From an uncultured Bacteroidia bacterium (GTDB lineage: Bacteria; Bacteroidota; Bacteroidia; Bacteroidales; UBA932): DNA of 64,000 nucleotides. The stretch covers positions 62,001-126,000 of the forward strand of contig CADAAA010000005.1 in NCBI GenBank assembly GCA_902785785.1, read 5' to 3'. This document shows, in pieces, positions 13,708 through 38,534 of the stretch. The notes under the pieces were generated by a model. It worked only from the letters and a program-made list of their open reading frames with translations. It did no database searches and was not told where the DNA came from. Position numbers and translations under genes: made by a program. Position 1 is the stretch's first letter; the number at the start of each line of letters is the position of its first letter.

Positions 13708-14559
13708 TTAATCCTCCATCTCAATAGTCCCTTCGAAAACGGTAGTTGCCGTGCCTGTCATATGTATGTCTTTTGTGGCAGGGTCCCATGATACATCCAG
13801 GGATCCTCCATCCATTATGACAGTGCACCCGTCAGGCCTCGTGTAGCCGGCCATGGCGGCAGCGACAGCCGTTGCGCAGGCACCGGTGCCGCAGGCTTGC
13901 GTAATACCGCTGCCGCGCTCCCAGACGCGCATCCTGATGTGTCTCTCGTCAATCACCTGGGCGAACTCTATGTTGGCCCTGTCGGGAAACATAGGGGAGT
14001 TCTCGAACAGTGGTCCAGCCTCTGCCACAGGCGCGGCTTCTGCATCGGGAACGAAGAGGACGAGATGGGGATTGCCTACATCCACGGCAGTTCCGCGGAA
14101 ACGCTTCCCGCAGGCGAAGAGGTCTCCAAGGATCCAGTTTCCGCAGTTTCCGTCGGGAAGGTTGACTTTGAGCGGAATGCCCTTGCCCATCTCCACGTTT
14201 ACGTCGAGAAGCTGTCCTTCCTTGTCGAGACGCAGACGCAGCACCTTAATGCCGGAGAGTGTCTCGAGCCTGAGTTCGTTCTTGTCGGACAGCCCATTGT
14301 CGTGGATGTAGCGTCCGACACAGCGCGAACCGTTGCCGCACATAAGGGCTTCGGAGCCATCGGCATTGAAGATCCTCATGCTGAAATCAGCCTTGTCCGA
14401 ACTGCCGATCAGGATAAGTCCGTCGGAGCCTATTCCCTTGTGCCTGTCGCTCCATTTTACAGAAAGTTCTGAAGGGTTATCCAGGGGATATTCCATAGTA
14501 TTGACATAGATGTAGTCGTTCCCCAGTCCGTGCATCTTCGTGAATGCTATCTGTCTCAT
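13708..14559 (-). CDS. dapF: Diaminopimelate epimerase
   Basis: DapF interconverts LL- and meso-diaminopimelate by a two-cysteine acid/base mechanism without a cofactor. The 283-residue protein opens with [14 protein letters not shown] and has both active-site cysteine regions, [13 protein letters not shown] and [16 protein letters not shown]. It overlaps gltD by 4 bases (ATGA type) and is 3 bases upstream of dapL, indicating translational coupling in the nitrogen operon. Confidence 0.95.
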
Positions 14560-15905
14560 ATGCGTCCTTTTAGATAGTTGTCAACTTCCTGTGCGACGGC
14601 CCTTCCTCCGGCCAGCGCCCTTACTACCAGGCTTGTTCCTGTTTTGGCGTCACCTGCGAGGAAGACGTTCGGCCCGAACTCCGGGTGCTGGGGCTTGAGG
14701 AATCCCATCGCCAGCAAAACCATATCACAATCGATGATGCTTTTCCGGCCTGTAGGTTTCATCTGCGGCCTGCCTCCGTCCGGAGCCGGCAGCCATTCGA
14801 CTTCCTCGACTTCCACGCCGGCTACCCGGCCCTTACCGTCGTCGAGGAAACGGCAGGAGGACAGGCTCCAGCGCCTGTCGCAGCCTTCCTCATGGCTGGT
14901 GGAAGTCCTGAGGATCATAGGCCAGGCAGGCCATGGAGTAGCGGGATTGTACCCCTCCGGCGGTTTGGGCATGATCTCGATCTGGGTGACGTTCCTGCAG
15001 CCCTGTCGGTGGCACGTTCCGATGCAGTCGCTGCCGGTATCGCCTCCGCCGATCACAAGGACTGTCCGACCTTTGGCCGAGACGGTTTCTTCCTTGCTGA
15101 ACTGTTCTCCCGCCAGCCTGCGGTTCTGCTGGGTAAGCAAGTCCAGGGCGAAGTAGATGCCTTTGAGCTCCCTTCCGGGAATGGGCAGGTCGCGTGCGGT
15201 AGGCGTACCTGTGGAAATGACATAGGCATCAAAACCTTCCGGCAGATGTTCCGTATCCACCGTCACTCCGTAGCGGAAGGTGATGCCTTCCTGCTCCAGT
15301 ACGGATATACGCCTGTCTATGACATACTTGTCCAGCTTGAAGTTGGGTATGCCGTAACGGACGAGGCCTCCTGCGGACGGCATCTTCTCCAGTACGGTGA
15401 CATCATATCCGCGCTTGTTGAGCTGGACGGCTGCGGAGAGTCCGGCAGGGCCGGCTCCGACCACGGCCACCTTTTTTCCATTGCGGGGATAGGAGTGTGG
15501 ATGGACATATCCTTCGCGGAACGCACGCTCTATGATCGAGCACTCGTTCTCGCGGACGGTGACGGGGGCGTCCATGGCGTGGTTGAGCACGCAACTCTTC
15601 TCGCACAGCGCGGGACAGATGCGCCCTGTGAATTCCGGAAAGTCATTGGTCTGCGACAGGAGCTTGTACGCAAGCTCCCACTTGCCCTTGCAGGCGGCGT
15701 CCTGCCATTCGGGCTGGCGGTTGCCCAGAGGGCAGGCCCAATGGCAGAACGGTATGCCGCAGTCCATGCACCGGGAAGCCTGGAGCATGCGGTCGCCCTC
15801 GTTGAGGGTCTGCTCCACTTCTCCGAAATTGGAGACTCTTTCAAATACCGGCCTGTGGCCGGCTTCCTGACGGGGGATGGTCAGGAACGCATTCGGGTTT
15901 CCCAT
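14556..15905 (-). CDS. gltD: Glutamate synthase small subunit
   Basis: The small subunit passes electrons from NAD(P)H through FAD to the large subunit. The 449-residue protein has an N-terminal cysteine-rich iron-sulfur region ([17 protein letters not shown], then [12 protein letters not shown]), an FAD-binding Rossmann motif [17 protein letters not shown] and an NADPH-binding motif [16 protein letters not shown]. It starts 12 bases after gltB ends and overlaps dapF, consistent with a GltBD complex made from one message. Confidence 0.96.
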
Positions 15906-15917
15906 ATTCCTTATCCG

Positions 15918-18900
15918 TTAATAATCCATTTGTACATTGTCGATCTTCTCGTTAAGCTTGCGCAACTGTTCCTCGTGGAGGACTCGCTTGTATTCGATAG
16001 GCGTGACCTGGATGAAGTCCTCGGCGTATTCTGACCAGTGCTCCAGCATCCTTGCGGCAAGGGCCGATCCGGTCAGTTTGCGGTGCTCGGCAATAAGGCT
16101 CTTGAGCTCCTCCATCCTGGCCTTCTCCTCAATCAGTCCAAGCTCGATCATCTCCATGTTGCAGTAGTAATCGAAGTTGTGGTCGGGGTCCCAGACATAT
16201 GCGAGACCGCCGGACATACCGGCCGCAAAGTTGCGCCCGGTGGGTCCGAGGACCACCACACGTCCGCCGGTCATATACTCGCAGCAATGGTCTCCGACTC
16301 CTTCCACGACGGCGGTTGCGCCGGAATTGCGTACGGCGAATCGTTCGCCGGCGCGGCCGGCCATGAACAGCGAGCCGGATGTCGCGCCGTAGAGCAGCGT
16401 ATTTCCGGCGATGGTGTTTTCAGAAGCGTCGAAATGGGCGTCAGGATCGGGACGTACGATGATGCTGCCACCGGAAAGGCCCTTGCCCAGATAGTCGTTC
16501 GCTTCTCCTTCAAGCCTGAAGCTGACTCCCTTCATAAGGAAGGCGCCGAAACTCTGTCCGGCCGACCCGTGGAAAGTGACGTTCACCGTCCCGTCGGGCA
16601 GACCATCCTCGCCGTAGCGTTCCGCTATGCGGCCGGACAGCAGGGCGCCGACGGTACGGTCGGTGTTAGCGATGCCATAGTGCAGCGATACGCTGCGGCC
16701 TTCTTCCAATGCTGGTTTTGCTGCAGCAAGTATATGCTTGTCCAGGACGTCTCCAAGACTGTTCCTGTACTCGGGATTTGCGTGGAGGTGACTGTCTCCT
16801 TCTTGGAAAAGGAGACGGCTGAAATCCAAAGATGCCGCCTTCGTGCCGGCCTTTGCACCGTCCACGGCGATAAGGTCCGTACGCCCGACGATATCTTCGA
16901 ATCGGCGGAATCCCATCTCAGCCAGATACTCGCGAACTTCCTGGGCCAGGAAACGATAGTAGTTGACCAGTGCATCGCTGCATCCGCGGTATAGCTTAAG
17001 CAACTGAGGATTGCGTGTAGCGATGCCCATGGGGCAGGAATTGGCGTGGCACTTGCGCATGAGCACGCAGCCGAGTACGATAAGCTGGGCCGTGCCGAAA
17101 CCGAATTCGTCTGCGCCCAGAAGGGCCATGGCGATGACATCGCGTCCGGTCTTGAGTTGTCCGTCGGTCTGGAGCGTAACCCTGTCACGGAGACCGTTCC
17201 GGATCAGTGTCTGCCTGGTCTCGGAAAGGCCTATCTCAGGCGAGACGCCCGCATAGCGTATCGAGGACATAGGGGAAGCCCCTGTACCTCCTTCAGCTCC
17301 GGAAATGACTATCAGGTTGGCTTTGGCCTTGGCTACACCTGCGGCCACTGTTCCGACTCCACTCTCTGCCACGAGTTTCACGCTGATGCGTGCATCGGGG
17401 TTGACATTGCGAAGATCGAAGATCAGTTGGGCCAGGTCCTCGATGGAATAGATGTCATGGTGAGGAGGGGGAGAGATGAGGGAAATGCCAGGGATGGAAT
17501 GGCGCGTGCGGGCGATGATACCGTCGACCTTGTATCCCGGCAACTGGCCGCCTTCTCCAGGCTTTGCACCCTGAGCGATCTTGATCTGTATCTCTTTCGC
17601 GTTGACGAGGTATTCGGTTGTTACACCGAAACGTCCGGAAGCGACCTGCTTTATAGCGCTGTTCTTGGGCGAATGGAAGCGTTCACGGTCCTCTCCGCCC
17701 TCACCGGTGTTGCTGCGCGAACCGAGGCGGTTCATGGCTTCTGCAATGGCCTCGTGGGCACCTTGGCTGATGGCGCCGAAGGACATGGCGGCTCCCACGA
17801 AGCGCTTTACTATCTCCTCCACGGGCTCGACCTCATCGATCGGGATGGGATTGTGCTTGAAACCGAAGAAATCCCTGAGGAACAGGGGCTCCTTGTGGTT
17901 GTCCACTATGGAGGTGAACTCCTTGAACTTCCTGTAGTCTCCGGAACGGGTAGCCAGCTGCAGCGCAGCGATCGCCTCGGGTGTCCACGAGTGGGGAATG
18001 CCATCCTTCCTGAAGGAGTATTGGCCGATATGTGGAAGGATGTCGGACACTTCGCAGTCAAATCCCTGCGCATGCATGCTGGCGGCGTCCTGTGCAATCC
18101 TGGACAGGGAGATGCCGCCGACAGTGGAGGACGGCGTACCGAAATACTCCCTGAGGAGGTCGGCTCCGAGTCCTATGCTTTCGAATATCTTCGCACCGCG
18201 ATAGGAGCGTATCGTGCTGATACCCATCTTGCTGAGTATCTTCTTCAGACCCTTGTCAACCGCCTTGATGTAGTTTTTCCGTGCAGTCTCGAAATCGAGC
18301 TGGAGATCTCCCTTCTTCACAAGGTCGTCGATGATGGCGAACGCCATGTAGGGGTTGACCGCACTGGCTCCGTACCCGAGCAGAAGCGCGGAGTGCATGG
18401 TCTCCCTTATTTCTCCGCTCTCCACGATCAAAGCTGTACGTACGCGCTTCTGGACCTTGACTAGGTAATGGTGTATGGCACTTACAGCCAGAAGCGAAGG
18501 TATCGCGGCATGTGTCTCGTCCAGCCCCCTGTCGCTGAGGATGATGTAGTTGATTCCCTGGTCAACGGAGGCTTCTGCTTCGCGGCAAAGGCTGTCCAGG
18601 GCCTCCTTCATCCCGACTTCTCCCTTGGACTTCTCGAAGATGATGGGAAGCACCTCGGTGTTGAAACCCTTGTAGCGGATATGGCAGAGTATGTCGAGCT
18701 CGTCGTTCGTCAGAACGGGCTGGGGGAGTCTCACCATCTTGCAATGGTCTTCATCAGGAGTGAGGATGTTCATTCCGACGGCTCCGATATACTCCGTGAG
18801 GGACATCACCAGATCTTCGCGTATGGGGTCGATGGGAGGATTCGTCACCTGTGCGAACTGCTGGCGGAAATAGTTGAAAAGCAATTGCGGCCGCTCGGAC

Positions 18901-20366
18901 AATGCAGCCAATTGCGTGTCATTTCCCATGGATGAGATAGGTTCCGAGGCCGTGTTGCACATCGGGATGATGATGCGCTCGATATCCTCGCGGGTGTAGT
19001 CGAATGCCCTGAGCCTCTTTTCGAAGTCAGGCACGGAGTTTTCCGCCTTGCGGCCGCTGCGGAGTTTAGCCAGTTCGATACGGCCGTTCGAAAGCCAGCG
19101 GCCATAATCGTGGCCGTCAGCCAAAGCCTGCTTGATCTCGTCGTTGCGGAAGATACGGCCTGTCTGGGTATCGACCATGAGTATCTTTCCAGGCTGGAGC
19201 GACCCTTTCTCGACCACGGAACCTGCCGCGACGGGGAGGCATCCGGCTTCCGAGGCGATAGCCAAAAGGCCTTTATCAGTGATGAAATAACGGGACGGGC
19301 GAAGGCCGTTGCGGTCCAGCATGCCTCCGGCGTAGCGGCCGTCGGAGAAGAGTATGGCGGCGGGGCCGTCCCACGGTTCCATAAGGATGGAGTGGTACTC
19401 GTAGAAAGCCTTCAGGTCGCTTCCAATGGGGTTCTTCTCGTTGAACGACTCCGGAATCATCATCGACATCACGTGCGGAAGCTCCATCCCAGAGTGGTAG
19501 AAGAACTCCATCGTATTGTCGAAAGATGCGCTGTCGCTCATACCCGGCTGGATGATGGGGGAGATGTCGCGGACATCTCCCAACGCCTCGGACGATAGCA
19601 CGCCCTCGCGGGCCTCCATCCATCCGCGGTTGCCGCGGATGGTATTGATCTCGCCATTGTGGGCCATCATCCTGAACGGCTGGGCAAGGGACCATGCCGG
19701 GAAGGTATTCGTGCTGAAACGGGAATGGACCAGGGCAAGACCGGAGGTGAAGAACGGGCTGGACAGGTCCGGATAATACTCCTTCAGCTGGGGCGAAGTC
19801 AGCATACCTTTGTAAATCAGTATGCGGCTGGAAAGGGACACGACATAGAAGTCCTTGTCGGAAATCCTTTGTTCCACGTGCTTGCGTATGCGGTACAGTC
19901 TGGTTTCCAATCCTTCCGGAGCGGAGTCGGCACCGGTGATGAAGACCTGGACGACATGCGGCTCGCAGGCGCGGGCCGTCTCGCCCAGGATATCGCTGTT
20001 CACCGGAACCTCCCTGACTTTGGAAAGGACAAGCCCTTCACGCTGAGTCTCCTCCTTTAGGGTTTCGATATAGTCTTCTCCTTTCTTGCTTTCCTTGGGG
20101 AGGAAGATGAGACCGGTGCCGTACCTGCCTCTCTCCGGGACAGGTATGCCCTGGAGCAGGATGAATTCGTGGGGAATCTGCACCATGATGCCGGCGCCGT
20201 CGCCAGTCCTGGCGTCGGCGCCTTCGGCTCCACGGTGCTTCAGGTTCTCCAGCATGGTGATGGCATCGGATACCAGCTGGTGGGTCTTGTTGCCGTTCAG
20301 GTCGGCGATCATTCCCACTCCGCAGGCATCGTGCTCGTATGCCGGATCGTATAAGGTTCTTTCCAT
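15918..20366 (-). CDS. gltB: Glutamate synthase large subunit
   Basis: GltB converts glutamine and 2-oxoglutarate to two glutamates, completing the GS-GOGAT cycle. It has 1482 residues, normal for the bacterial alpha subunit. The catalytic N-terminal cysteine is in HDACGVGMIADLNG, implying removal of a short propeptide. The class II glutaminase domain is followed by a central domain, the FMN synthase domain (GEGGEDRERFHSPK, QIKIAQGAKPGEGGQLPG, the Cys-rich region CVLMRKCHANSCPMG) and a C-terminal beta-helix domain with repeated GG-containing turns. It lies 4 bases after glnN and 12 before gltD. Confidence 0.97.
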   Translation of the reverse strand: MERTLYDPAYEHDACGVGMIADLNGNKTHQLVSDAITMLENLKHRGAEGADARTGDGAGIMVQIPHEFILLQGIPVPERGRYGTGLIFLPKESKKGEDYIETLKEETQREGLVLSKVREVPVNSDILGETARACEPHVVQVFITGADSAPEGLETRLYRIRKHVEQRISDKDFYVVSLSSRILIYKGMLTSPQLKEYYPDLSSPFFTSGLALVHSRFSTNTFPAWSLAQPFRMMAHNGEINTIRGNRGWMEAREGVLSSEALGDVRDISPIIQPGMSDSASFDNTMEFFYHSGMELPHVMSMMIPESFNEKNPIGSDLKAFYEYHSILMEPWDGPAAILFSDGRYAGGMLDRNGLRPSRYFITDKGLLAIASEAGCLPVAAGSVVEKGSLQPGKILMVDTQTGRIFRNDEIKQALADGHDYGRWLSNGRIELAKLRSGRKAENSVPDFEKRLRAFDYTREDIERIIIPMCNTASEPISSMGNDTQLAALSERPQLLFNYFRQQFAQVTNPPIDPIREDLVMSLTEYIGAVGMNILTPDEDHCKMVRLPQPVLTNDELDILCHIRYKGFNTEVLPIIFEKSKGEVGMKEALDSLCREAEASVDQGINYIILSDRGLDETHAAIPSLLAVSAIHHYLVKVQKRVRTALIVESGEIRETMHSALLLGYGASAVNPYMAFAIIDDLVKKGDLQLDFETARKNYIKAVDKGLKKILSKMGISTIRSYRGAKIFESIGLGADLLREYFGTPSSTVGGISLSRIAQDAASMHAQGFDCEVSDILPHIGQYSFRKDGIPHSWTPEAIAALQLATRSGDYRKFKEFTSIVDNHKEPLFLRDFFGFKHNPIPIDEVEPVEEIVKRFVGAAMSFGAISQGAHEAIAEAMNRLGSRSNTGEGGEDRERFHSPKNSAIKQVASGRFGVTTEYLVNAKEIQIKIAQGAKPGEGGQLPGYKVDGIIARTRHSIPGISLISPPPHHDIYSIEDLAQLIFDLRNVNPDARISVKLVAESGVGTVAAGVAKAKANLIVISGAEGGTGASPMSSIRYAGVSPEIGLSETRQTLIRNGLRDRVTLQTDGQLKTGRDVIAMALLGADEFGFGTAQLIVLGCVLMRKCHANSCPMGIATRNPQLLKLYRGCSDALVNYYRFLAQEVREYLAEMGFRRFEDIVGRTDLIAVDGAKAGTKAASLDFSRLLFQEGDSHLHANPEYRNSLGDVLDKHILAAAKPALEEGRSVSLHYGIANTDRTVGALLSGRIAERYGEDGLPDGTVNVTFHGSAGQSFGAFLMKGVSFRLEGEANDYLGKGLSGGSIIVRPDPDAHFDASENTIAGNTLLYGATSGSLFMAGRAGERFAVRNSGATAVVEGVGDHCCEYMTGGRVVVLGPTGRNFAAGMSGGLAYVWDPDHNFDYYCNMEMIELGLIEEKARMEELKSLIAEHRKLTGSALAARMLEHWSEYAEDFIQVTPIEYKRVLHEEQLRKLNEKIDNVQMDY

Positions 20367-20370
20367 AGAC

Positions 20371-22557
20371 TTAGTTGATGAATAGGAGTTCGCGGTACTT
20401 GGGCAGCGGCCACATGTCGTTGTCCACGATTTCTTCCAGCTTGTCGATGGGCCTGCGGATTGCGAACAGGCTTTCGGCTATCTCGTGATAGGCCTTTGCC
20501 TTCTCGTATTCGTTCTCGATGGTGTTGGCACTCTTCCTGGCTTCGATCATCTTTGCCACGCCCTTCTGGAGCTGTTCTATCCTATGGGAGATCTTTTCGA
20601 TGAGGGTGATGGTTACGGCTGCCTTTTCCTGATAGGAATCGGGGAAGTTCTCTTTCATCATGGTCAGGTTCTTGAGCAGGGTGTTCTGGTACGCAAGAGC
20701 TGCGGGGATGACGTGGTTGATGGCCATCCTGCCCATCACACGGGACTCTATCTGCACCTTCTTGGTGTACATCTCCCACTTGACCTCGTTGCGGGCCTCA
20801 AGCTCCTTTGTAGTGTAGATGCCCAGCGAGGTGAACATTTCGACGGATTCAGGTTTAGTGAAGGATTTGATCATCTCCGGTACGCTGGTCTCGGTGTCGA
20901 GTCCGCGCCTTGCCGCCTCTTCCTTCCACTCGTCGGTGTAGCCGTTTCCGTCGAAGCAGACGACATCGATGATGGAGCTGATGATCGGTTTGAGGGTGTC
21001 CATCACGGCAACTTCCAGGGCCTTTCCGGAGGCGAGCTCCTTGTCGAGGGCCTTCTTGAAGACTAGCAGCTGCTCGGCGACGGCACCGCTGAGCGCAGTC
21101 ATTGCGCCGGCGCAGTTGGCCGAGGAGCCGACGGCGCGGAACTCGAAGCGGTTGCCTGTGAAGGCGAAGGGCGAGGTGCGGTTGCGGTCAGTGTTGTCCA
21201 CGAAGATCTCGGGAATCTCGACGATGCCCACGGAGGTCTCTTTCTTTCCGGCGATCTCGATGGGGGTGCCGGAAGGCAGCTCGAGCAGTTTGTGGAGGAC
21301 TTCAGTCATGGTGCGGCCGAGGAAGGCGGAGACGATTGCCGGCGGAGCCTCGTTGGCACCGAGACGGTGCGCGTTGGTTGCGCTGGCGATGCTGGCCTTC
21401 AGCAGGGCGTTATGCTTCTGGACCGCGGCGAGGATGTTGACGAAGAAGGTAACGAACTGGAGGTTTCCTGCAGGATCCTTGCCGGGGGCAAGCAGCAAGG
21501 TACCGGTGTCGGTACCGAGAGACCAGTTGTTGTGCTTACCGGAACCGTTGATACCGTCGAAGGGCTTCTCGTGCAGCAGCACAACGAAACCGTGCTTGCG
21601 CGCGACCTTGTTCATCACGTTCATTATCATCTGGTTCTGGTCGTTGGAGAGATTGCACTCCCCGAAGATCGGAGCAAGTTCGAACTGGTTGGGAGCGACC
21701 TCGTTGTGCCTGGTCTTCAGGGGAATGCCGAGTTTGTAGCCTTCGTACTCGAGATCCTTCATGAATGCTGCGACGCGGGTGGGAATGGCAGCGAAGTAGT
21801 GGTCCTCGAGCTGCTGGTTCTTGGAGGAGGCGTGGCCCATCAGGGTGCGTCCTGTGAGGATAAGGTCAGGCCTGGCTGCATAGAGATCCTCGTCCACGAG
21901 GAAATACTCCTGCTCCCAGCCTAGATAGGAATGCACCTTAGATACTTTTGGATCGAACAACTTGCAGATAGGTACCGCAGCGTCGGAAACGGCCTTGAGC
22001 GCCTTCTTGAGAGGAGTCTTGTAGTCCAGTGCCTCGCCTGTGTAAGAGATAAACACAGTCGGTATACAGAGGGTGTCATCCTGGATGAAGACCGGAGAAG
22101 TCGGGTCCCAGGCGGTGTAACCGCGGGCCTCGAAGGTGGCGCGGATTCCTCCGCTGGGGAAGGATGAGGCGTCCGGTTCCTGCTGGATGAGGGACTTGCC
22201 GTTGAAGGACTCTATCATGCCTCCCTTTCTGTCATATTCCATCAGGGAGTCGTGCTTCTCGGCCGTCACTTCCGTGAGGGGCTGGAACCAGTGGGTGATG
22301 TGCGTGACACCGTGTTCCAGCGCCCACTCCTTCATGCCTTCGGCAACTTTGTCAGCCGTGGCCAGGTCGAGTGAGCGGCCGTTGTCGATACAGTCGACCA
22401 AAGCCTCGTAGGTCTTGACATCAAGATACTTGCGCATCTTCTCGCGGTTGAACACCAACTCTCCGAAATAGGCGGAAGGTCTCTCTGCGGGGGCAGTCAC
22501 GTCCAAAGCCCTCTTCTTGAAGGCATCCTGGACAACATCGAATCTAAGCTTGCTCAT
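20371..22557 (-). CDS. glnN: Type III glutamine synthetase
   Basis: GlnN makes glutamine from glutamate, ammonia and ATP. At 728 residues it is far longer than GlnA (about 470) and matches the GSIII class first described in Bacteroides. Visible family features are the N-terminal YFGELVFNREKMRKYL, KGGMIESFNGKSLIQQEPDASSFPSGG (given here only as its ends KGGMIESF and SSFPSGG), the nucleotide-site GINGSGKHNNWSLGT and NRTSPFAFTGNRFEFRAVGS. No other glutamine synthetase is present in the window. It is the second gene of the operon, 20 bases after asnB, and gltB follows after 4 bases. Confidence 0.96.
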   Translation of the reverse strand: MSKLRFDVVQDAFKKRALDVTAPAERPSAYFGELVFNREKMRKYLDVKTYEALVDCIDNGRSLDLATADKVAEGMKEWALEHGVTHITHWFQPLTEVTAEKHDSLMEYDRKGGMIESFNGKSLIQQEPDASSFPSGGIRATFEARGYTAWDPTSPVFIQDDTLCIPTVFISYTGEALDYKTPLKKALKAVSDAAVPICKLFDPKVSKVHSYLGWEQEYFLVDEDLYAARPDLILTGRTLMGHASSKNQQLEDHYFAAIPTRVAAFMKDLEYEGYKLGIPLKTRHNEVAPNQFELAPIFGECNLSNDQNQMIMNVMNKVARKHGFVVLLHEKPFDGINGSGKHNNWSLGTDTGTLLLAPGKDPAGNLQFVTFFVNILAAVQKHNALLKASIASATNAHRLGANEAPPAIVSAFLGRTMTEVLHKLLELPSGTPIEIAGKKETSVGIVEIPEIFVDNTDRNRTSPFAFTGNRFEFRAVGSSANCAGAMTALSGAVAEQLLVFKKALDKELASGKALEVAVMDTLKPIISSIIDVVCFDGNGYTDEWKEEAARRGLDTETSVPEMIKSFTKPESVEMFTSLGIYTTKELEARNEVKWEMYTKKVQIESRVMGRMAINHVIPAALAYQNTLLKNLTMMKENFPDSYQEKAAVTITLIEKISHRIEQLQKGVAKMIEARKSANTIENEYEKAKAYHEIAESLFAIRRPIDKLEEIVDNDMWPLPKYRELLFIN

Positions 22558-22577: not shown

Positions 22578-24245
22578 TTAATATGCTTGGATATGGACTC
22601 CGGCGACCGCGCGTCCGCTGGGGTCGTTGAGGTTCTTGAAGGCGGCATCCCATTCGAGCGCGATGGCAGTGGAACAGGCAACGCTGGCCTCGCTGGGGAC
22701 CGATAGTGCAGCTGAATCGCTCGGAAACAGTTCGGAGAAAATGCTGCGGTAGTAATACTCTTCCTTGTTCTGAGGAGTGTGGATAGGGAAGCGGTTGGCA
22801 GCATGCGCCATCTGCTCGTCGCTGACGGCCTCGGCCGTGACCCGCTTGAGCGTGTCGATCCAGGAGTAGCCGACGCCGTCTGAGAACTGCTCCTTCTGCC
22901 TCCAGGCTATCTCTGATGGGATCAGGTCTGCACACGCCTCGCGGACAATCTTCTTTTCGATTGTCTGCCCGGGGCACATCTTTGCGGCTGGATTCAGGCG
23001 CATGGCTACGTCGAGGAATTCCTTGTCAAGGAACGGTACGCGCCCTTCCACACCCCAGGCCGAAAGGCTCTTGTTGGCTCTCAGGCAGTCATATAGGTGA
23101 AGCTTCGAGAGCTTGCGCACAGTTTCCTCATGGAAGGCGCGTGCATCAGGCGCCTTATGGAAGTACAGGTACCCGCCGAAGACTTCATCGGCACCTTCGC
23201 CGGAGAGCACCATCTTGATGCCCATCGACTTGATGACGCGTGCCAGGAGATACATCGGCGTCGAGGCGCGGATGGTCGTGACATCGTAAGTCTCGGTATA
23301 ATAAATGACGTCACGAATTGCGTCCAGGCCTTCCTGGATGGTATAGTTGATCTCGTGATGGACAGTACCGATGTGCTCGGCGACAAGGCGGGCCTTGTCG
23401 AGGTCAGGCGCACCTTTCAGCCCTACGGCGAAAGAATGCAGCCGCGGCCACCAGGCGCGTGTCCTGGAGTCGTCCTCGATGCGCATCGCGCTGAACTTCT
23501 CGGCTATCGCCGAAATGACGGAAGAGTCGAGGCCACCGGAGAGCAGCACGCCGTAAGGGACGTCGGACATCAGCTGGCGCTTCACCGCGGACTCCAGCGC
23601 AGCACGAAGCTGCGCCGGGTCGGCGGGGTTGTCTTTCACTGCATCGTAATCCTGCCATTCGCGGGTGTACCAGCGCTTCATCCCTGGCTTGCGGCTCCAG
23701 TAGCAGTGGCCGGGCAGGAAGGGCTCGTAACGTTCGCACTGCCCTTCCAGCGCCTTCAGCTCGCTGGCGACATAGACCTTTCCGTCAGCGTCGTCAAAGC
23801 CGATATACAGCGGAATGACTCCGATGGGGTCGCGGGCGATCAGGAAAGCATCTTTTTCTGCGTCATAGAGTGCAAATGCGAAAATCCCGTTCAGTTCCTC
23901 CAGGAAATCCGGTCCCTTGTCGCGGTACAAGGCGAGAATGACCTCACAATCGCTGCCCGTACGGAAATCATATTTCCCGGCGTAACGCCGGCGGATCTCC
24001 TGATGGTTATAGATCTCACCGTTGACGGCCAGCACCTGCTTCCCGTCAGGGGAGAGGAGCGGCTGTCCGCCGGATTCCGGATCCACGATGCTCAGGCGCT
24101 CGTGGGCCATGACGGCGCTCCCGCCGCACCAGATGCCGCTCCAGTCCGGCCCTCTGTGCCGAAGTTTGCGGCTCATCTCAAGAGCCTTCCGGCGCATGGC
24201 GTCGGACTGTTCGCGAATGTTGAAAATACATGAGATCCCACACAT
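22578..24245 (-). CDS. asnB: Glutamine-hydrolysing asparagine synthetase
   Basis: AsnB uses glutamine and ATP to amidate aspartate. The 555-residue protein starts MCGISCIFNI, giving the class II glutaminase nucleophile Cys2 after Met removal, with LRHRGPDWSG and AVNGEIYNH as further glutaminase motifs. The synthetase domain has the PP-loop YGVLLSGGLDSSVISA and GEGADEVFGGYLYFHKAP. It is the first structural gene after the Gln/Asn-rich leader and terminator; its ATG is 60 bases beyond the terminator T-run, so transcription must pass that terminator to reach all seven genes. Confidence 0.97.
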   Translation of the reverse strand: MCGISCIFNIREQSDAMRRKALEMSRKLRHRGPDWSGIWCGGSAVMAHERLSIVDPESGGQPLLSPDGKQVLAVNGEIYNHQEIRRRYAGKYDFRTGSDCEVILALYRDKGPDFLEELNGIFAFALYDAEKDAFLIARDPIGVIPLYIGFDDADGKVYVASELKALEGQCERYEPFLPGHCYWSRKPGMKRWYTREWQDYDAVKDNPADPAQLRAALESAVKRQLMSDVPYGVLLSGGLDSSVISAIAEKFSAMRIEDDSRTRAWWPRLHSFAVGLKGAPDLDKARLVAEHIGTVHHEINYTIQEGLDAIRDVIYYTETYDVTTIRASTPMYLLARVIKSMGIKMVLSGEGADEVFGGYLYFHKAPDARAFHEETVRKLSKLHLYDCLRANKSLSAWGVEGRVPFLDKEFLDVAMRLNPAAKMCPGQTIEKKIVREACADLIPSEIAWRQKEQFSDGVGYSWIDTLKRVTAEAVSDEQMAHAANRFPIHTPQNKEEYYYRSIFSELFPSDSAALSVPSEASVACSTAIALEWDAAFKNLNDPSGRAVAGVHIQAY

Positions 24246-24304
24246 GGTATTCGTGTTTATTTGTTAAGTTATGCGTTTCCTTTTTCGGGGGGAGGGAGGG
24301 AATC

Positions 24305-24334
24305 AAAAAAAGACCGGCTCTCTCGAACCGGTCT
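24305..24334 (-). terminator. Attenuator-type intrinsic terminator ahead of the asnB operon
   Basis: In RNA sense the arms are AGACCGGTTC and GAGCCGGTCT (10 pairs, one G-U) closed by a GAGA loop, followed by a run of T. It lies 29 bases after the leader stop codon and before asnB, a position for premature termination rather than end-of-operon termination. The loop is of the GNRA class, as in the copy at 29221-29244. Confidence 0.88.
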
Positions 24335-24363
24335 CCTATTATGCTTATACCATAAAAATCACC

Positions 24364-24471
24364 TTATCCGACCGGCAGGACAAGATACAGCTTATTATTC
24401 TGGGAATTCTGTGAATTCTCAGAGACAAACTGCTGCTTGAAATTGGCGGATATGATGAAAAGGTTTGTCAT
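24364..24471 (-). CDS. Gln/Asn-rich leader peptide of the asnB operon (35 aa)
   Basis: The short ORF starts ATG at 24471, 20 bases after a TAAATTTG promoter box, and stops TAA at 24364-24366. It encodes MTNLFIISANFKQQ, then FVSENSQNSQNN, then KLYLVLPVG. The middle has two consecutive CAG codons and then a nine-base period (AAT TCN CAG) giving N-S-Q-N-S-Q-N-N, so Gln and Asn are 10 of 35 residues. The segment GCCGGTC (24370-24376), ending 4 bases before the stop, can pair with the terminator 5' arm. This is the layout of an amino-acid attenuator: a ribosome held at Gln/Asn codons would leave the antiterminator free, while one reaching the stop would cover it. Translation is inferred, not shown. 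Confidence 0.78.
   Translation of the reverse strand: MTNLFIISANFKQQFVSENSQNSQNNKLYLVLPVG
24370..24376 (-). promoter_or_regulatory. Candidate antiterminator segment of leader A
   Basis: GCCGGTC in the last codons of the leader duplicates most of the terminator 3' arm and is complementary (7 pairs, one G-U) to GACCGGT in the terminator 5' arm at 24327-24333. The two pairings are mutually exclusive. Confidence 0.65.
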
Positions 24472-24490
24472 TTCGATCGTTCTTCTGTTA

Positions 24491-24521
24491 CAAATTTAGT
24501 CAGCGGAAATCTAAAATGCAA
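24491..24521 (-). promoter_or_regulatory. Promoter of the asnB nitrogen operon
   Basis: TTGC, 19 bases, then TAAATTTG fits the Bacteroidota -33/-7 pattern. An A/T-rich tract lies just upstream. The box is 20 bases before the leader ATG, giving a very short 5' end as expected for an attenuator leader. Confidence 0.75.
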
Positions 24522-24696: not shown

Positions 24697-26790
24697 TTAT
24701 TCCGAAATCATCTCAAGATCCGATATCCACAGCGCCACCTTCGCATCCGAAGGCATCCTGAGGTCCCCTCTCGGAGAAAGGGACACCGAACCGACCTTCG
24801 GTCCGTCGGGAAGGCAGGAACGCTTGAACTGCTGGCTGAAGAACCTCCAGTAGAACTTCTTGAGCCATTTTTGGATTGTCTCCTTGTCATAGTCGTTGGA
24901 CTTTCCTTCCGGTCCCACGAAAACTGATGCGTCCGCCCTCTTTCCGAGGAAGGCCTTCTTCGCGAGGAAGTATATCTTCGAAGGAGAGTATCCGAAACGG
25001 AACATATTGTATAGGAAGAAGTCGTGGAGTTCGTAAGGTCCGACGAGATCCTCTGTCTTCTGCTTTATGTTACCCTTCTCGTCAGCCGGGGTGAGTTCTG
25101 GGCTGATGGGGGTGTCGACGACATCGAGGAGGATTTCTCGGGCGGTTCTTTCCCCGTCCCCAGCCTCACCGAAGTTGTTCTCCGCCGCCCACTTCACGAG
25201 GTACTTCACGAGTGTCTTTGGGATTGAGGCGTTCACTCCGTACATCGACATATGGTCTCCGTTGTATGTGGCCCAACCAAGAGCCAGTTCCGAAAGATCT
25301 CCCGTTCCGACGACAAGACCGTTTTCCTTGTTTGCCACATCCATCAGAATCTGGGTCCTTTCCCTCGCCTGGCTGTTTTCGTAGGTGATGTCATGGACCG
25401 AAAGGTCATGTCCTATGTCCTCGAAATGCTGCTTGACGGCAGGGACTATGGAAATCTCCCTCTGGGTGACACCGAGTACAGTCATAAGGTCGACTGCGTT
25501 GCTGTATGTACGGTTAGTAGTACCGAAGCCGGGCATCGTTATTCCGATGATGCCTTTGCGGTCATACCCCAGACCGTCAAAGGCCATCACCGTTACAAGA
25601 AGCGCCAGGGTGCTGTCCAATCCTCCGGATACTCCGATGACGGCTGTCTTGCAGCCTATGTGCTCGAGCCTGGACATGAGGCCGAGGACCTGGATCGAAG
25701 TGATCTCCTTGGCCCTGCGGTCAATTTCGGCGGGATCTCCGCCGGGAACGAATGGATGTGGTTCTATACTCCGGATAAGTTCTTCGTCGAATGAAGTCGA
25801 AGCGGCTTTGCCGAGGTCTACGATGCCGTAGCGGCGGCGCATGTCGGAGGAAGTCCTTCCGTCGGGGATTATGGCAGAGAATGTCGTCTCCCTCTGACGC
25901 AGGATGGAGAGTTTCTCCATGTCGAGATCCGCGAGGATCATCTGGGTCTTCGTGGAGAACCTTTCGCTTTCGGCGAGGAAGGAACCGTTCTCGCAGATCA
26001 TCGATGATCCCGCGAAAACCATATCCTGGGTGGATTCACCGTAGGAAGCCGAACAGTAGATGTACCCACTTATGGTCCTTGCTGACTGGTTCGCTACGAG
26101 AGCCTTTCGGTAGACGTGCTTTAGGAGCACCTCGTTGCTTGCGGAAGGGTTGACGATGATTCTGGCTCCGCCCAGGGCGTGGAACGACGAAGGAGGGATG
26201 GGCATCCACAGGTCCTCGCAGATTTCCACGGCGAAGGTCGCCTCCCCGATCGAGAAAATCTGGTTCGGGGAAATCGTCGTCCTGAATCCGGCGTACTTCA
26301 TCGTGCAGGGGGTACCTTCACGGTAGTAGTCCTTGCCGTCGTCATGGAAGTTACCGGTGGAGACGTTTCCGGGTGAGAGGAAATCCGCCCCTGAAGAGAA
26401 CCACCTCGATTCATAGAACTCCCCGTAGTTGGGTATGTACACCTTGGGGACAAGTCCCCGGAGCATCCCGTTTCGGAAGACGGCGGCGCAGTTATAAAGG
26501 CGGTCCAGGTGCCTAACCGGCACTCCGACCACTACCGTCACTTCCTTGGCCCTTGTATGGGCCCTTATCGCCGCTATCGCCTTCTCCGCCTCGGCGATGA
26601 GGATATCCTGGCTGAAAAGGTCGCCGCAGGTGTATCCTGTGACGCAGAGTTCGGGAAAGACCAGAAGCGACACCTTCCTGTTTTCAGCGACGGTAATGGC
26701 GGAAAGGATTTCCGCTGTATTGAATGCAACGTCGGCCACCTTCACACGAGGTGAACATGCTGCCACTCTTATGAATCCGTAATTTTCCAT
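24697..26790 (-). CDS. nadE: Glutamine-dependent NAD+ synthetase
   Basis: NadE amidates deamido-NAD using ammonia cut from glutamine by its own N-terminal domain. The start at 26790 gives 697 residues (MENYGFIRVAACSPRVKVAD); the frame stays open further upstream, but that part overlaps the porin 3' end and is not conserved-looking. The nitrilase-type glutaminase has Glu in LLVFPELCVTGY, Lys in VPKVYIPNYGEFYE and Cys in AVEICEDLWMP. The synthetase domain has the ATP loop VIGVSGGLDSTLALL. It is the last gene of the glnK-amt operon, so a sixth glutamine-using enzyme type is placed behind a Gln/Asn leader. Confidence 0.94.
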   Translation of the reverse strand: MENYGFIRVAACSPRVKVADVAFNTAEILSAITVAENRKVSLLVFPELCVTGYTCGDLFSQDILIAEAEKAIAAIRAHTRAKEVTVVVGVPVRHLDRLYNCAAVFRNGMLRGLVPKVYIPNYGEFYESRWFSSGADFLSPGNVSTGNFHDDGKDYYREGTPCTMKYAGFRTTISPNQIFSIGEATFAVEICEDLWMPIPPSSFHALGGARIIVNPSASNEVLLKHVYRKALVANQSARTISGYIYCSASYGESTQDMVFAGSSMICENGSFLAESERFSTKTQMILADLDMEKLSILRQRETTFSAIIPDGRTSSDMRRRYGIVDLGKAASTSFDEELIRSIEPHPFVPGGDPAEIDRRAKEITSIQVLGLMSRLEHIGCKTAVIGVSGGLDSTLALLVTVMAFDGLGYDRKGIIGITMPGFGTTNRTYSNAVDLMTVLGVTQREISIVPAVKQHFEDIGHDLSVHDITYENSQARERTQILMDVANKENGLVVGTGDLSELALGWATYNGDHMSMYGVNASIPKTLVKYLVKWAAENNFGEAGDGERTAREILLDVVDTPISPELTPADEKGNIKQKTEDLVGPYELHDFFLYNMFRFGYSPSKIYFLAKKAFLGKRADASVFVGPEGKSNDYDKETIQKWLKKFYWRFFSQQFKRSCLPDGPKVGSVSLSPRGDLRMPSDAKVALWISDLEMISE

Positions 26791-26839
26791 CTTGGAATAT
26801 GTGTGTCTTGAACTGGGACTTTGTGAATATCTAGAATAA

Positions 26840-27550
26840 TTACGGTTGTAACGTGATGCCAAATACCAAGAAGGCAGACTTGGAATAAGGGTTGGCCTCC
26901 ACCTGGGCGAAAACCGGAATGGAGAAAGTATCCGTAACCTGGATGTTCTTCGCCGCCGTCAATGCGAGGTTGGTGACGGCGAATCTGTCCGTACCGTAGA
27001 AATCGGTGGCAAACGGGACCGCACCGGCCGTGGCCGTCCAATCGACATCGCCGAGCTTAAACGGAACGCTGATTTCCAAATAGCTGCTGTAAGCGAGTTT
27101 CCCGGTAGCCTCCACCAGGTCGTTGCCTGCAAAGTTGGTGTACCACTGCAACGACGCAAAGCCGAAGTCATAACCGGCATTCGCCTCGAACACATGGTTC
27201 GTATAGTCGGCGGCGTACTTGAAGTAGTGGTTCAGCGGGTCCAGACCCGCATTGAACCAATAATCCGTCACGCCGATATTGAAACCTCCGACCGAGTAAG
27301 CAAGCGTCAGGTCCAGTTCCTTCGTATCGGCCGGGTCGGACAGGCCCACCGAGCCCCAGACCGAGAGGCTCAAGCCCTTGTAGCTGACGCCGAGCGCCGG
27401 CTGCATCGACACGTCGCCCAATTCCATGCCGCGCCAGACATAACTGCTAACGAAGTCGGTGCCGATAGTGGTTTCCACCGTGTCTTGAGCCTTGGTGGTT
27501 GCTGCACCGAAGAGCAGCAAAGCAAGACCGCTGTAAAATATCTTTTTCAT
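26840..27550 (-). CDS. Outer-membrane beta-barrel protein, TorF/Gcw_chp-like putative porin
   Basis: The protein has 236 residues from MKKIFYSGLALLLFGAATT, with cleavage likely after TKAQ. ATG 27550 is preferred over an upstream in-frame start at 27574 because the signal peptide begins here. The mature protein has alternating hydrophobic beta-strands ending in aromatic or polar residues (VSSYVWRGMELGDVSMQPAL, SLSVWGSVGLSD) and a short C-terminal strand, typical of a small porin. It lies 24 bases after amt. In Bacteroidota such porins often accompany ammonium transporters, so it may let ammonium through the outer membrane; this is inference. Confidence 0.72.
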   Translation of the reverse strand: MKKIFYSGLALLLFGAATTKAQDTVETTIGTDFVSSYVWRGMELGDVSMQPALGVSYKGLSLSVWGSVGLSDPADTKELDLTLAYSVGGFNIGVTDYWFNAGLDPLNHYFKYAADYTNHVFEANAGYDFGFASLQWYTNFAGNDLVEATGKLAYSSYLEISVPFKLGDVDWTATAGAVPFATDFYGTDRFAVTNLALTAAKNIQVTDTFSIPVFAQVEANPYSKSAFLVFGITLQP

Positions 27551-27574
27551 AGGTAATATCAATTTAATTATCAA

Positions 27575-28792
27575 CTAGTTATAACAGCTTTCGCCGTGTT
27601 CGTAGATGTCGAGGCCCTCGTCTTCGACGCGCGATTCGACGCGCAGGCCATGGGCCTTCTTGATGCCGAAGAACAGGATGAATCCGCATACTGCGGCCCA
27701 GAGGTCGATGACAAGGATGCCAAGGCACTGTACTCCGAAGAAATGCCATCCGCCGCCGTAGAAGAGACCTCCGTCAGTGGCGAGAAGGCCGGTGAGGATA
27801 GTACCGAGGATACCGCAGACTCCGTGTACGGACGATGCGCCTACAGGATCGTCGATGTGCAGTTTGTGATCGATGAACTCGATTGCGAATACCAGCACTA
27901 TTCCGCAGAGAAGACCGATGACGACTGCTCCCCAGGGCGAGACTGCGTCGCATCCGGCGGTGATGCCGACAAGACCTGCCAGGATGCCGTTGAGCGTCAA
28001 CGACAGCGAGGGCTTGCCGTACTTGAGCCAGGTAAGGAACATGGTCGCAGTACCGCCGGCTGCAGCTGCAAGGTTGGTGGTCAGGAAGACATGCGATATG
28101 GCGATGCGGTTCACTTCACCGCTGGCGGCCAGCTGGCTTCCCGGGTTGAATCCGAACCATCCGAGCCAGAGGATGAAGACCCCCAGTGCAGCTATGGCCA
28201 GGTTGTGTCCGGGGATGGCCCGGCTCTTGCCGTCCTTGCCGTATTTGCCGCGACGCGGTCCGAGTGCGATGGCTCCGATCAGGGCAAGGACACCGCCTAC
28301 GCTGTGCACTATAGCGCTTCCTGCGAAATCGTGGAAACCAAGATCAGCTAGCCAGCCTCCTCCCCAGGTCCAATGTCCCTCGACGGGATAGACTATCAAG
28401 GATATGAATGCACTGTAGACAAGGTACATCGAGAATTTGGTGCGCTCTGCCATGGCGCCGCTGACGATGGTCGCGGCCGTGGCGCAGAAGACGGTCTCGA
28501 AGATCAGGAAACCTTCCACGGGCAGGTCGCCCTTGTAGAAGGAGAGGTCTCCCCAGTTGGGAGCGCCGATGAATCCGGCTCCGTCGCTTCCGAACATGAA
28601 GCCGAAGCCGACCAGGAAGAACAGCAGGGAGCCGAGCATGAAGTCGACGAAGTTCTTCATCAATATGTTGACGGTGTTCTTGCTGCGTGTGAATCCCGCT
28701 TCGCAGAGGGCGAATCCGGGTTGCATCCAGAAGACAAGCATTGCTGCAAGCAGCATCCAAACGGTATCGAGGGATATGGCTAACTCATTCAT
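27575..28792 (-). CDS. amt: Ammonium transporter, Amt family
   Basis: Amt is a trimeric inner-membrane channel that takes up ammonium. Its 405 residues are hydrophobic with about 11 expected membrane segments. Family motifs are MQPGFALCEAGFTRSKNT near the start and the two pore histidines in GSAIVHSVGGVLALIG and ASSVHGVCGILGTI. There is no cleavable signal peptide; the N-terminus enters a membrane helix directly. It sits 21 bases after the PII gene, the usual glnK-amt pairing, so PII is expected to gate it. Confidence 0.95.
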   Translation of the reverse strand: MNELAISLDTVWMLLAAMLVFWMQPGFALCEAGFTRSKNTVNILMKNFVDFMLGSLLFFLVGFGFMFGSDGAGFIGAPNWGDLSFYKGDLPVEGFLIFETVFCATAATIVSGAMAERTKFSMYLVYSAFISLIVYPVEGHWTWGGGWLADLGFHDFAGSAIVHSVGGVLALIGAIALGPRRGKYGKDGKSRAIPGHNLAIAALGVFILWLGWFGFNPGSQLAASGEVNRIAISHVFLTTNLAAAAGGTATMFLTWLKYGKPSLSLTLNGILAGLVGITAGCDAVSPWGAVVIGLLCGIVLVFAIEFIDHKLHIDDPVGASSVHGVCGILGTILTGLLATDGGLFYGGGWHFFGVQCLGILVIDLWAAVCGFILFFGIKKAHGLRVESRVEDEGLDIYEHGESCYN

Positions 28793-28813: not shown

Positions 28814-29161
28814 TTACTTCTTGTCACGGAGCACTGTGTCGCCGTGCTCACCCGTACGTATCGACCAGGTGTCGATCACGTCGCTCACGAAGATGCGTCC
28901 GTCTCCGACCTCTCCGGTATGGGCCTCGCGCAGTATGACCTCGACGGCCGGTTCGACGAACATGTCGCGGCAGATGATGGTCAGTGCGATGCGTTCGATA
29001 ACGTCCGTGGAGTACTGGACTCCTCTGTAGATCCTCTCCTGGCGGCTCTGTCCGATACCGTGAACGTCATGGTACTCGAACCAGTTGATGTCCGACTGCA
29101 ACAGGGCTTCCTTCACATCCTCAAACCTTGTTTTCCGGATGATAGCTTCAATCCTTTTCAT
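28814..29161 (-). CDS. glnK: PII nitrogen regulatory protein
   Basis: PII proteins are trimeric sensors of 2-oxoglutarate and ATP/ADP that bind and block Amt. This protein has 115 residues, the normal length, and starts MKRIEAIIRKTRFEDVKEAL. The T-loop contains GQSRQERIYRGVQY, with the Tyr of YRG equivalent to the uridylylation site in enteric PII, though the loop sequence before it differs from the common form. The B-loop is TGEVGDGRIFV. It is the first structural gene after the second Gln/Asn leader; its start is 50 bases downstream of the end of the terminator T-run. Confidence 0.93.
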   Translation of the reverse strand: MKRIEAIIRKTRFEDVKEALLQSDINWFEYHDVHGIGQSRQERIYRGVQYSTDVIERIALTIICRDMFVEPAVEVILREAHTGEVGDGRIFVSDVIDTWSIRTGEHGDTVLRDKK

Positions 29162-29210: not shown

Positions 29211-29244
29211 AAAACAAAAAAGACCGGCTCTTTCGAACCGGTCT
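29211..29244 (-). terminator. Attenuator-type intrinsic terminator ahead of glnK-amt
   Basis: Arms AGACCGGTTC and GAGCCGGTCT (RNA sense) with a GAAA loop, then T5-G-T4. It is the same stem as at 24311-24334, with only the loop changed from GAGA to GAAA, both GNRA. It lies 24 bases after the leader stop. Confidence 0.87.
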
Positions 29245-29268
29245 CCTATTATGCTCATACCACAAAAA

Positions 29269-29382
29269 TCACCTTATCCGACCGGCAAGACAAGATACAG
29301 CATTATTATTCTGGGAATTCTGTGAATTCTCAGAGACAAGCTGCTGCTTGAAATTGGCCGTAATGGTGAAAATGTTGATCAT
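29269..29382 (-). CDS. Gln/Asn-rich leader peptide of the glnK-amt operon (37 aa)
   Basis: ATG at 29382, TGA at 29269-29271. It encodes MINIFTITANFKQQ, LVSENSQNSQNN, then NAVSCLAGRIR. The first 26 residues align with the asnB leader, with identical KQQ and NSQNSQNN blocks. One extra base in the run of AAT codons then shifts the frame, replacing the KLYLVLPVG ending with NAVSCLAGRIR. Read in the other frame, the DNA still encodes LVLPVG and a stop (TAA). The antiterminator segment GCCGGTC (29280-29286) is retained and still lies within a ribosome footprint of the new stop. The frameshift could be real, a sequencing or assembly error, or a recoding site. Confidence 0.75.
   Translation of the reverse strand: MINIFTITANFKQQLVSENSQNSQNNNAVSCLAGRIR
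29280..29286 (-). promoter_or_regulatory. Candidate antiterminator segment of leader B
   Basis: GCCGGTC in the leader's last codons is complementary to GACCGGT in the terminator 5' arm (7 pairs, one G-U), as in copy A. It is unchanged despite the nearby one-base indel. Confidence 0.63.
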
Positions 29383-29401
29383 TTCGTTCGTTCTTCTGTT
29401 A

Positions 29402-29432
29402 CAAATATAGTCAGCGGAAATCTAAAATGCAA
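29402..29432 (-). promoter_or_regulatory. Promoter of the glnK-amt operon
   Basis: TTGC, 19 bases, TATATTTG: the same promoter as copy A with one base changed inside the variable positions of TAnnTTTG, so consensus is preserved. It begins 31 bases after the pyrG stop. Confidence 0.75.
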
Positions 29433-38461: not shown

Positions 38462-38534
38462 TGGAGCATAGGAGGGTCGAACTCCCGACCTCTAGATTGC
38501 GAACCTAGCGCTCTGCCAACTGAGCTAATGCCCC
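38462..38534 (-). tRNA. tRNA-Ala (anticodon CGC)
   Basis: A 73-base cloverleaf: acceptor GGGGCAT/ATGCTCC, D-arm GCTCAGTTGGCAGAGC, anticodon loop TTCGCAA with U33 and anticodon CGC, T-arm GGGAGTTCGACCCTCC, discriminator A. The acceptor holds a G3-U70 wobble, the alanine identity element. The terminal CCA is not encoded (the next bases are CAA). CGC reads GCG codons, which fits the high GC at third positions here. Confidence 0.93.

Follow-up and report, generated by a model that had tools for sequence, protein, structure and literature searches.

Leader-peptide attenuators are known for the amino-acid operons trp, his, leu, ilv, thr and phe. T-boxes bind tRNA directly, without translation, and the glutamine riboswitches of cyanobacteria, the glnA RNA and the Downstream-peptide RNA, possess an aptamer that binds glutamine. 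According to a 2010 survey, Proteobacteria and Actinobacteria were at that time the only groups with known leader-peptide systems, to which it added one in Firmicutes (PMC2965389). Leader-peptide attenuation was suggested for amino-acid operons of Flavobacterium psychrophilum in the cited sections of PMC9723704, and small ORFs reminiscent of leader peptides were described in Bacteroides thetaiotaomicron in those of PMC7366714. The open-access literature, which leaves subscription journals mostly outside, gave among the matches listed neither a leader peptide for Gln or Asn nor a glutamine synthetase or amtB operon under leader-peptide attenuation.

The present work concerns a window (the whole stretch of DNA analysed, 64,000 nucleotides) in which a short ORF rich in Gln and Asn codons and a terminator precede nitrogen genes. 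We consider it highly probable that the element attenuates transcription in the ribosome-mediated, leader-peptide manner and that its Gln and Asn codons serve as the sensor. The support comes from the sequence anatomy, the recurrence, the covariation, the geometry and a direct route of tRNA charging.

Results

Two leaders ahead of two nitrogen gene sets

The initial annotation had described a promoter, a 35-codon ORF, a GCCGGTC segment and a terminator ahead of a named seven-gene operon, and all of these were found on the minus strand as claimed (copy A in Table 1). The codons of the ORF include CAG CAG and the series AAT TCA CAG AAT TCC CAG AAT AAT. GCCGGTC, designated R2, is the predicted antiterminator segment, and the terminator is formed by R3 and R4. 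The genes asnB-glnN-gltB-gltD-dapF-dapL-purF are all co-directional, with intergenic gaps of at most 20 nt. Taken singly, the elements of copy A are weak. Two terminator-like sites were present in 1.2 kb versus 1.9 in shuffles, and two promoter-like sites versus 1.0; GCCGGTC paired with the terminator arm at a dinucleotide-shuffle p value of 0.053, not significant alone. The second copy and the same architecture in relatives exceed chance.

Table 1. Features of the two leaders and of the genes behind them (window positions)
Feature	Position	Strand	Remarks
Promoter-like TTGCA...TAAATTTG, copy A	24491-24521	-	candidate, from sequence
Leader ORF, copy A, MTNLFIISANFKQQFVSENSQNSQNNKLYLVLPVG and stop	24364-24471	-	35 aa + stop; 4 Gln + 6 Asn codons
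R2 antiterminator segment GCCGGTC, copy A	24370-24376	-	predicted; within last codons of the ORF
Intrinsic terminator (R3:R4), copy A	24305-24337	-	13 pairs, then T run; folded energy -19.9 kcal/mol
asnB, asparagine synthase B	22578-24245	-	NF006949
glnN, type III glutamine synthetase	20371-22557	-	PF12437 + PF18318
gltB, glutamate synthase large subunit	15918-20366	-	NF008730
gltD, glutamate synthase small subunit	14556-15905	-	TIGR01317
dapF, diaminopimelate epimerase	13708-14559	-	TIGR00652
dapL, LL-diaminopimelate aminotransferase	12499-13704	-	TIGR03542
purF, amidophosphoribosyltransferase	11127-12509	-	TIGR01134
Promoter-like TTGCA...TATATTTG, copy B	29402-29432	-	candidate, from sequence
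Leader ORF, copy B, MINIFTITANFKQQLVSENSQNSQNNNAVSCLAGRIR and stop	29269-29382	-	
R2 antiterminator segment GCCGGTC, copy B	29280-29286	-	predicted
Intrinsic terminator, copy B	29216-29247	-	
glnB, P-II nitrogen regulator	28814-29161	-	PRK10858 + PRK10665 matches, below cut-offs
amtB, ammonium transporter	27575-28792	-	PF00909
orf244	26840-27574	-	between amtB and nadE, behind copy B
nadE, glutamine-dependent NAD synthase	24697-26862	-	last gene of the copy B set

A scan of the window for a short ORF with at least 22% Gln + Asn followed by a terminator gave two matches, corresponding to copy A and to a copy B at 29216–29432. Copy B is located about 5 kb upstream of copy A, before glnB-amtB-orf244-nadE; the initial annotation was right at copy A and had overlooked this second one before glnB-amtB. 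Aligned over 249 positions, the two copies agree at 232 and differ by 16 mismatches and one gap. Compared with copy B, copy A is without one base at the end of the Gln/Asn run, which shifts the frame of the last codons and the stop; GCCGGTC is intact in both copies despite this frame change. The reading frame of copy B is common to loci L081, L099 and L159. At L159 (MAG RGIG8007, from water buffalo rumen), tblastn showed the order pyrG, glnB, amtB, orf244, asnB, glnN and gltB in one orientation, and a scan with ATG starts only gave a single leader. Unlike this locus, the window carries nadE and a second leader between orf244 and asnB. Given the gene order and the single leader of L159, it looks as if this operon was split by nadE in the window and the attenuator was copied to the start of the new operon.

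The orf244 product had no match in Pfam or NCBIfam. Its relatives (44–46% identical) are the first gene after 3 of the 39 leaders described below. By position, orf244 may correspond to PRU_1977 of Prevotella ruminicola, on gene order only, as given in the cited sections of PMC5552732.

Occurrence in relatives

The loci of relatives were fetched by gene (asnB, glnN or amtB), independently of the leader. In total, 39 leaders of the Gln/Asn kind were gathered from Bacteroidales, and the first gene behind the leader was asnB, glnB, glnN or an orf244 relative in 39/39. The comparative search, as proposed in the initial annotation, found the ORF, the terminator and the alternative pairing again before asnB, glnB-amtB, glnN and orf244-like genes, and this recurrence supports the reading as a Gln/Asn leader-peptide attenuator given there. 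The initial annotation had centred the element on type III glutamine synthetase; some leaders precede glnN, but the commonest first gene is glnB (22/39). Within the family, the three parts together occur in no fewer than three genera (g1, g26 and g39), and they recur at two loci with records labelled Bacteroidales and Bacteroidaceae. Absence from related genomes had been named as an argument against the element; the leader recurs, although leaderless relatives are common.

Among amtB loci of the genus, a leader was found in 12 of 30 (8 by the scanner, plus L081, L082, L083 and L103). In the wider set of genome contigs the scanner gave 7 matches, two of them (L188 and L190) judged to be chance, leaving a leader at 5 of 80 amtB loci, with the region before glnB read by eye in 18 of the 80. 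For asnB, leaders were present at 4 of 21 loci of a first set, own genome included, and at 1 of 28 of a second set (L128, by eye; the scanner match L122 was judged to be chance). The 30 glnN loci gave none, the window's own glnN, which is behind asnB, being among these 30. In several leaderless loci of the genus, glnB directly follows purF-, pyrG-, gltD- or glnN-like genes, i.e., it is internal to an operon. Two complete leaders with their terminators were present in tandem before glnB-amtB at L177:4170-4580 (MAG RGIG10233, yak rumen). The scanner accepts ATG starts only, and the GTG-start leaders of L081–L083, L262, L266 and L279 came by other routes, so other leaders with GTG starts may be missed. 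On reading, the scanner matches at L005/L072, L013, L030, L038, L054, L060, L122, L129, L146, L152, L188 and L190 were judged to be chance.

A covariance model was made from 18 leaders, using the ORF end and the terminator only and leaving out the Gln/Asn run. When compared with 299 genomes of the family, it gave a match at E <= 0.01 in 130 of them. Its 12 best places comprised 8 Gln/Asn leaders and 4 non-leaders; five of these leaders were from training (both window copies, G016, G074 and G139) and three were new (G126, G253 and G416). Fifty model match loci (L244–L293), a subset of all model matches, were passed through the scripts and provided 13 of the 39 leaders, all outside training. They are located before glnN (G126, G061, G412, G285, G312, G406 and G408), before glnB (G416, G204, G247, G253 and G360) and before an orf244-like gene (G241). 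Many of the low-scoring matches were ordinary terminators. By eye, L246, L254, L255, L258, L271, L273, L277, L282, L283 and L291 looked like ordinary, often bidirectional terminators.

Some leaders are less typical. L007, before the asnB of G012, is a weak member with 1 Gln and 5 Asn codons and only 4 nt from the last of them to R2. L061:639 (minus strand, G000 contig 8) is a candidate Gln-rich leader (5 Gln, 1 Asn) before the second glnN of the genome to which the window belongs; it is kept as a candidate only, with a pairing of R2 and R3 no better than in shuffles (p = 0.91).

The sequence TAnnTTTG is the Bacteroidota -7 promoter consensus. It was present at most 60 nt upstream in 16 of 26 leaders, one of which has just 9 nt of upstream sequence, versus 2.6% in mononucleotide shuffles. 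Such promoter-like sequences bear on the idea that the terminator simply belongs to the upstream gene, nadE or pyrG, and that the short ORF is a chance frame. The distances are compatible with it, with about 0.23 kb between the end of nadE and ORF A and 80 nt between the end of pyrG and ORF B, and terminator-like sites are frequent. However, a promoter-like sequence separates the upstream gene from the ORF, and the order ORF-R2-terminator recurs with a nitrogen gene first in 39/39, which makes this explanation very improbable.

Coding signal and choice of codons

In 19 leaders Gln and Asn together accounted for 33% of the codons in frame; the two alternative frames gave 3% and 7%. These counts do without the near-duplicates L085, L158, A, L083 and L139, and also without L103 and L128, in which the script saw no terminator. 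Gln is encoded in the leaders by 97 CAG and 1 CAA, Asn by 87 AAT and 38 AAC; 11 window genes taken for comparison contain 141 CAG, 23 CAA, 47 AAT and 162 AAC, the two sets coming from different numbers of genomes. The gene-anchored sequence (1.82 Mb including overlaps) contained 154 unique pairs of ORF and terminator. When all 190 residue pairs were scored, N/Q came first at 8, 9 and 10 of 12 residues (11, 10 and 9 cases, respectively) and tied with R/S at 7 of 12 (16 each); the 6.7% background of Q+N in this scoring excludes by construction the peptides with at least 20% Q+N.

Every one of the 39 leaders has both Gln and Asn codons, with a single Asn in L061 and L275 and a single Gln in L007. 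The share of Gln was 0.63 before glnN (nine leaders), 0.47 before glnB, and 0.43 before both orf244-like genes and asnB. It was higher before glnN than before all others (8 versus 24 leaders, p = 0.002) and than before asnB (8 versus 5, p = 0.016), after removal of seven near-duplicates of the 39 and with p values uncorrected for relatedness or for the two tests. The genome encodes GlnRS and AsnRS, both above cut-offs, and no match to GatB was found in it (the assembly is 96% complete). Thus tRNA-Gln and tRNA-Asn should be charged from free amino acids.

A peptide composed in this manner could itself be a functional small protein of nitrogen metabolism, followed by an ordinary terminator with partial readthrough. 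One type of peptide does precede the nitrogen genes, and NFKQQ...SQNSQNN is common to both window copies and near relatives. Across clades, however, no residue besides Q and N was conserved by eye, the lengths range from 21 to 47 aa, and the base missing in copy A alters the C-terminus whereas R2 is kept. We regard a small protein as extremely unlikely.

Alternative pairing, covariation and predicted folds

The distance from the last preceding Gln/Asn codon to R2 was 15–30 nt in 25 of 26 leaders, the exception being L007. Relative to the stop codon, the position of R2 varied between -33 and +14 nt, and R2 was downstream of the stop codon in L100, L103 and L234. Such a distance between the Gln/Asn codons and R2 is what the need for a stalled ribosome to spare R2 would impose: beginning 15–30 nt past the last of these codons, R2 would stay free during the stall.

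The pairing score of hand-set R2 with its own R3 was 16.98, versus 14.01 (sd 0.65) with permuted partners (p = 5e-5, n = 20); as with the covariation and share statistics, relatedness is ignored in these permutations. R2 had been re-set by eye, a choice that favours the model, after an early test, open to any site upstream of R3, which put R2 within the Gln/Asn run or ahead of its end in L009, L148, L177a, L234, L082 and L083. Windows placed by the Gln/Asn run alone were then used as a repeat, with 16.70 versus 14.19 (sd 0.56, p = 5e-5, n = 20). The 20-leader permutations do without A, L085, L139, L158, L159 and L083. Leader by leader, the pairing compared with dinucleotide shuffles had a p value of at most 0.053 in only 7 of 24 leaders (0.053 in copy A and 0.063 in copy B). 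Combined over 19 leaders, these p values gave 1.2e-5.

Covariation was evaluated on an alignment of 18 rows, which left out eight of the 26 leaders (L085, L158, L100, L106, L007, L234, L061 and L128), six of them non-duplicates and several poorly paired. In these 18 rows the R2:R3 helix was 89.6% paired, a value reached by 35 of 500 shuffles, and its covariation score was matched by 10 of 500. The central pair was A-U in 8 rows, G-C in 8 and G-U in 2. Two R2:R3 pairs were changed on both sides, which is not unusual (190 of 500 shuffles). The terminator was 93.6% paired; both sides had changed in 6 of its 13 pairs (reached by 5 of 500 shuffles), and its covariation score was matched by none of 500.

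A covarying terminator could also be driven by a metabolite-binding RNA such as a glutamine riboswitch, or by a protein-bound attenuator, the ORF being then incidental; glutamine riboswitches indeed exist upstream of cyanobacterial nitrogen genes. At gathering score, no Rfam family was found at the locus, the only match in the window being a tRNA at 38462–38534, and the T-box family was unmatched there as well. The glutamine riboswitch families (glnA RNA and Downstream-peptide RNA) were matched neither in the window at gathering score nor at six loci at E <=0.5. An sRNA (E 0.31) was the sole Rfam match at these six loci with E up to 0.5; among L099, L102 and L138 it was located in L138, elsewhere than at the leader. 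Moreover, unlike in an aptamer, the segment from the promoter to R2 shared by eye nothing across clades but in-frame Gln/Asn codons. A metabolite- or protein-driven terminator is therefore most unlikely.

Folding was performed for 26 leaders, with terminators followed by a T run at a mean of -19.0 kcal/mol. With the ribosome at the last Gln/Asn codon preceding R2, an R2:R3 helix of five or more pairs was predicted in 20 of 26, the failures being L084, L011, L007, L148, L234 and L061. With the ribosome at the stop codon, no R2:R3 pairs were predicted in 24 of 26; the exceptions were L103 and L234, in which R2 is after the stop. Over all Gln/Asn codons, the R2:R3 helix was predicted at 115 of 304. 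In the window copies it forms for late stalls (N25-N26 in A, Q24-N27 in B) and also for stalls at N3 (A and B) and N10 (B), and the folds gave none for stalls at Q13 or Q14. All these later folds treat the RNA upstream of the ribosome as unavailable, a choice favouring the model; in the first folds, with the upstream RNA free, R2:R3 was predicted at 1 of 10 (A) and 1 of 11 (B) Gln/Asn codons.

Translation of the leader might alternatively act on mRNA stability or on translation of the first gene and not on transcription termination, and sections of PMC4833913 propose ribosome re-initiation at leader genes for many bacteria. Against such a role stand the terminator with its T run after the 26 folded leaders and the helix that is mutually exclusive with it, and we give this possibility very little weight.

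Other elements of the lineage

Other leaders and elements were seen in the course of the analysis. The trpB-like gene of L272, so called by search, and that of L287, so called by sequence similarity to L272, both follow an F/W-rich leader peptide (FFFWRTWFW and FFFWRAWFW) and a similar terminator. L284 encodes an F/Y-rich leader (FYNAGYYFFYYR) before a gene with best NCBIfam matches to prephenate dehydratase, below cut-off. From these F/W and F/Y leaders, the lineage seems to employ this type of switch for further amino acids too.

In leaderless relatives, a conserved dyad ACTTGCGAAAT-N4/5-ATTTCGCTTG with co-changing arms, followed by AGGGGGAT or similar, was observed before glnB at the site where others carry the leader (L086–L094, L096, L160–L162, L165–L167 and L169–L172). 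No Rfam match was found in the three such loci searched (L087, L089 and L094). The dyad might serve as an operator or as some other RNA element. In leaderless Prevotella-like loci (L175, L211, L212, L225 and others), a recurring ACATTTTGTCA or ACACATTGTCA was noticed by eye before the promoter; these stretches upstream of glnB are possible transcription-factor sites.

Discussion

In the features examined, the anatomy and the comparisons match what is expected of a classical leader-peptide attenuator, single leaders being weak. We infer leader translation, stalling, termination, readthrough and the signal from the sequences, and propose the following course of events. RNA polymerase would start at the promoter and a ribosome would translate the leader. 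With tRNA-Gln and tRNA-Asn charged, the ribosome would get to the stop codon and cover R2 (GCCGGTC), R3 would pair with R4, and the terminator would form and switch the operon off. If either charged tRNA were short, the ribosome would stall within the Gln/Asn run and leave R2 uncovered, and R2 would pair with the emerging R3 and permit readthrough into the nitrogen genes. As a Gln/Asn ORF and a stop signal precede two sets of nitrogen genes in the window of this gut bacterium, and occur also in some relatives, the cells probably read the charging of tRNA-Gln and tRNA-Asn to set the synthesis of ammonium-assimilation enzymes. The presence of both codons in all leaders suggests that Gln and Asn shortage would act as an OR input.

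A broader proposal, to which we give about an even chance, is that of a nitrogen regulon (ammonium transporter, P-II, glutamine synthetase, GOGAT and asparagine synthase) placed under a tRNA-Gln/tRNA-Asn OR-gate leader. Its codon mix would be tuned to the operon, Gln being more frequent ahead of glutamine synthetase. The regulon would grow as the attenuator is copied to new operon starts, as exemplified by the window copies and the tandem pair of L177. If true, the leader would fill the role that NtrBC or GlnR has elsewhere. The patchy occurrence, together with the tandem leaders and the copy created where an operon apparently was split, hints at the ways in which such switches spread and vanish. 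Nitrogen sensing in Bacteroidales seems poorly known, and the Gln/Asn leader is a concrete cis element that can be tested with reporters.

The clusters of P. ruminicola 23 share gene content with the window, with P-II, amtB, an unknown gene and asnB on the one hand, and glnN-2, gltBD and dapF on the other (cited sections of PMC5552732). The same sections report a 69-fold change of amtB and a 35-fold change of glnN with ammonium, cluster genes ranging from 27- to 69-fold, and name no mechanism for this response. As to its direction, one results passage describes induction at limiting ammonium; higher levels at excess ammonium are given in the discussion, in a figure legend and by the enzyme assays, and similar levels in both ammonium conditions in the abstract (PMC5552732). 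Induction at excess ammonium, if true of a leader-bearing species, would argue against a sensor that responds simply to shortage. In our set, the majority of Prevotella-like amtB loci are leaderless, so that the P. ruminicola data count neither for nor against the attenuator.

Like the cyanobacterial glutamine riboswitches, the Gln/Asn leader would let glutamine supply control nitrogen genes in cis; it differs from them in its coding sensor and in the lack of an Rfam match at the locus. With T-box attenuators it would have in common the reading of tRNA charging and the switching of a terminator, but it is translation-based and gave no T-box match at gathering score. The candidates of F. psychrophilum (PMC9723704) and B. 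thetaiotaomicron (PMC7366714) suggest this class of mechanism in the same phylum; in the cited sections they are, unlike the present leaders, named with neither Gln/Asn specificity nor a nitrogen regulon. The closest resemblance is to the trp, his, leu, ilv, thr and phe attenuators, with a short ORF rich in codons for the product, an antiterminator at the end of the ORF, a terminator ahead of the first gene and the same ribosome geometry. The differences are the Gln and Asn codons, the Bacteroidales host, and the genes concerned: ammonium transport, P-II, glutamine synthetase, GOGAT and asparagine synthase. The class of mechanism, ribosome-mediated attenuation, is already known. What is new is the Gln/Asn specificity, the nitrogen-assimilation regulon including ammonium transporter and P-II, and the apparent spread by copying. 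Leader-peptide control, a matter of single amino-acid pathways, would thereby come to include the whole of ammonium assimilation, and nitrogen status would be read from tRNA charging.
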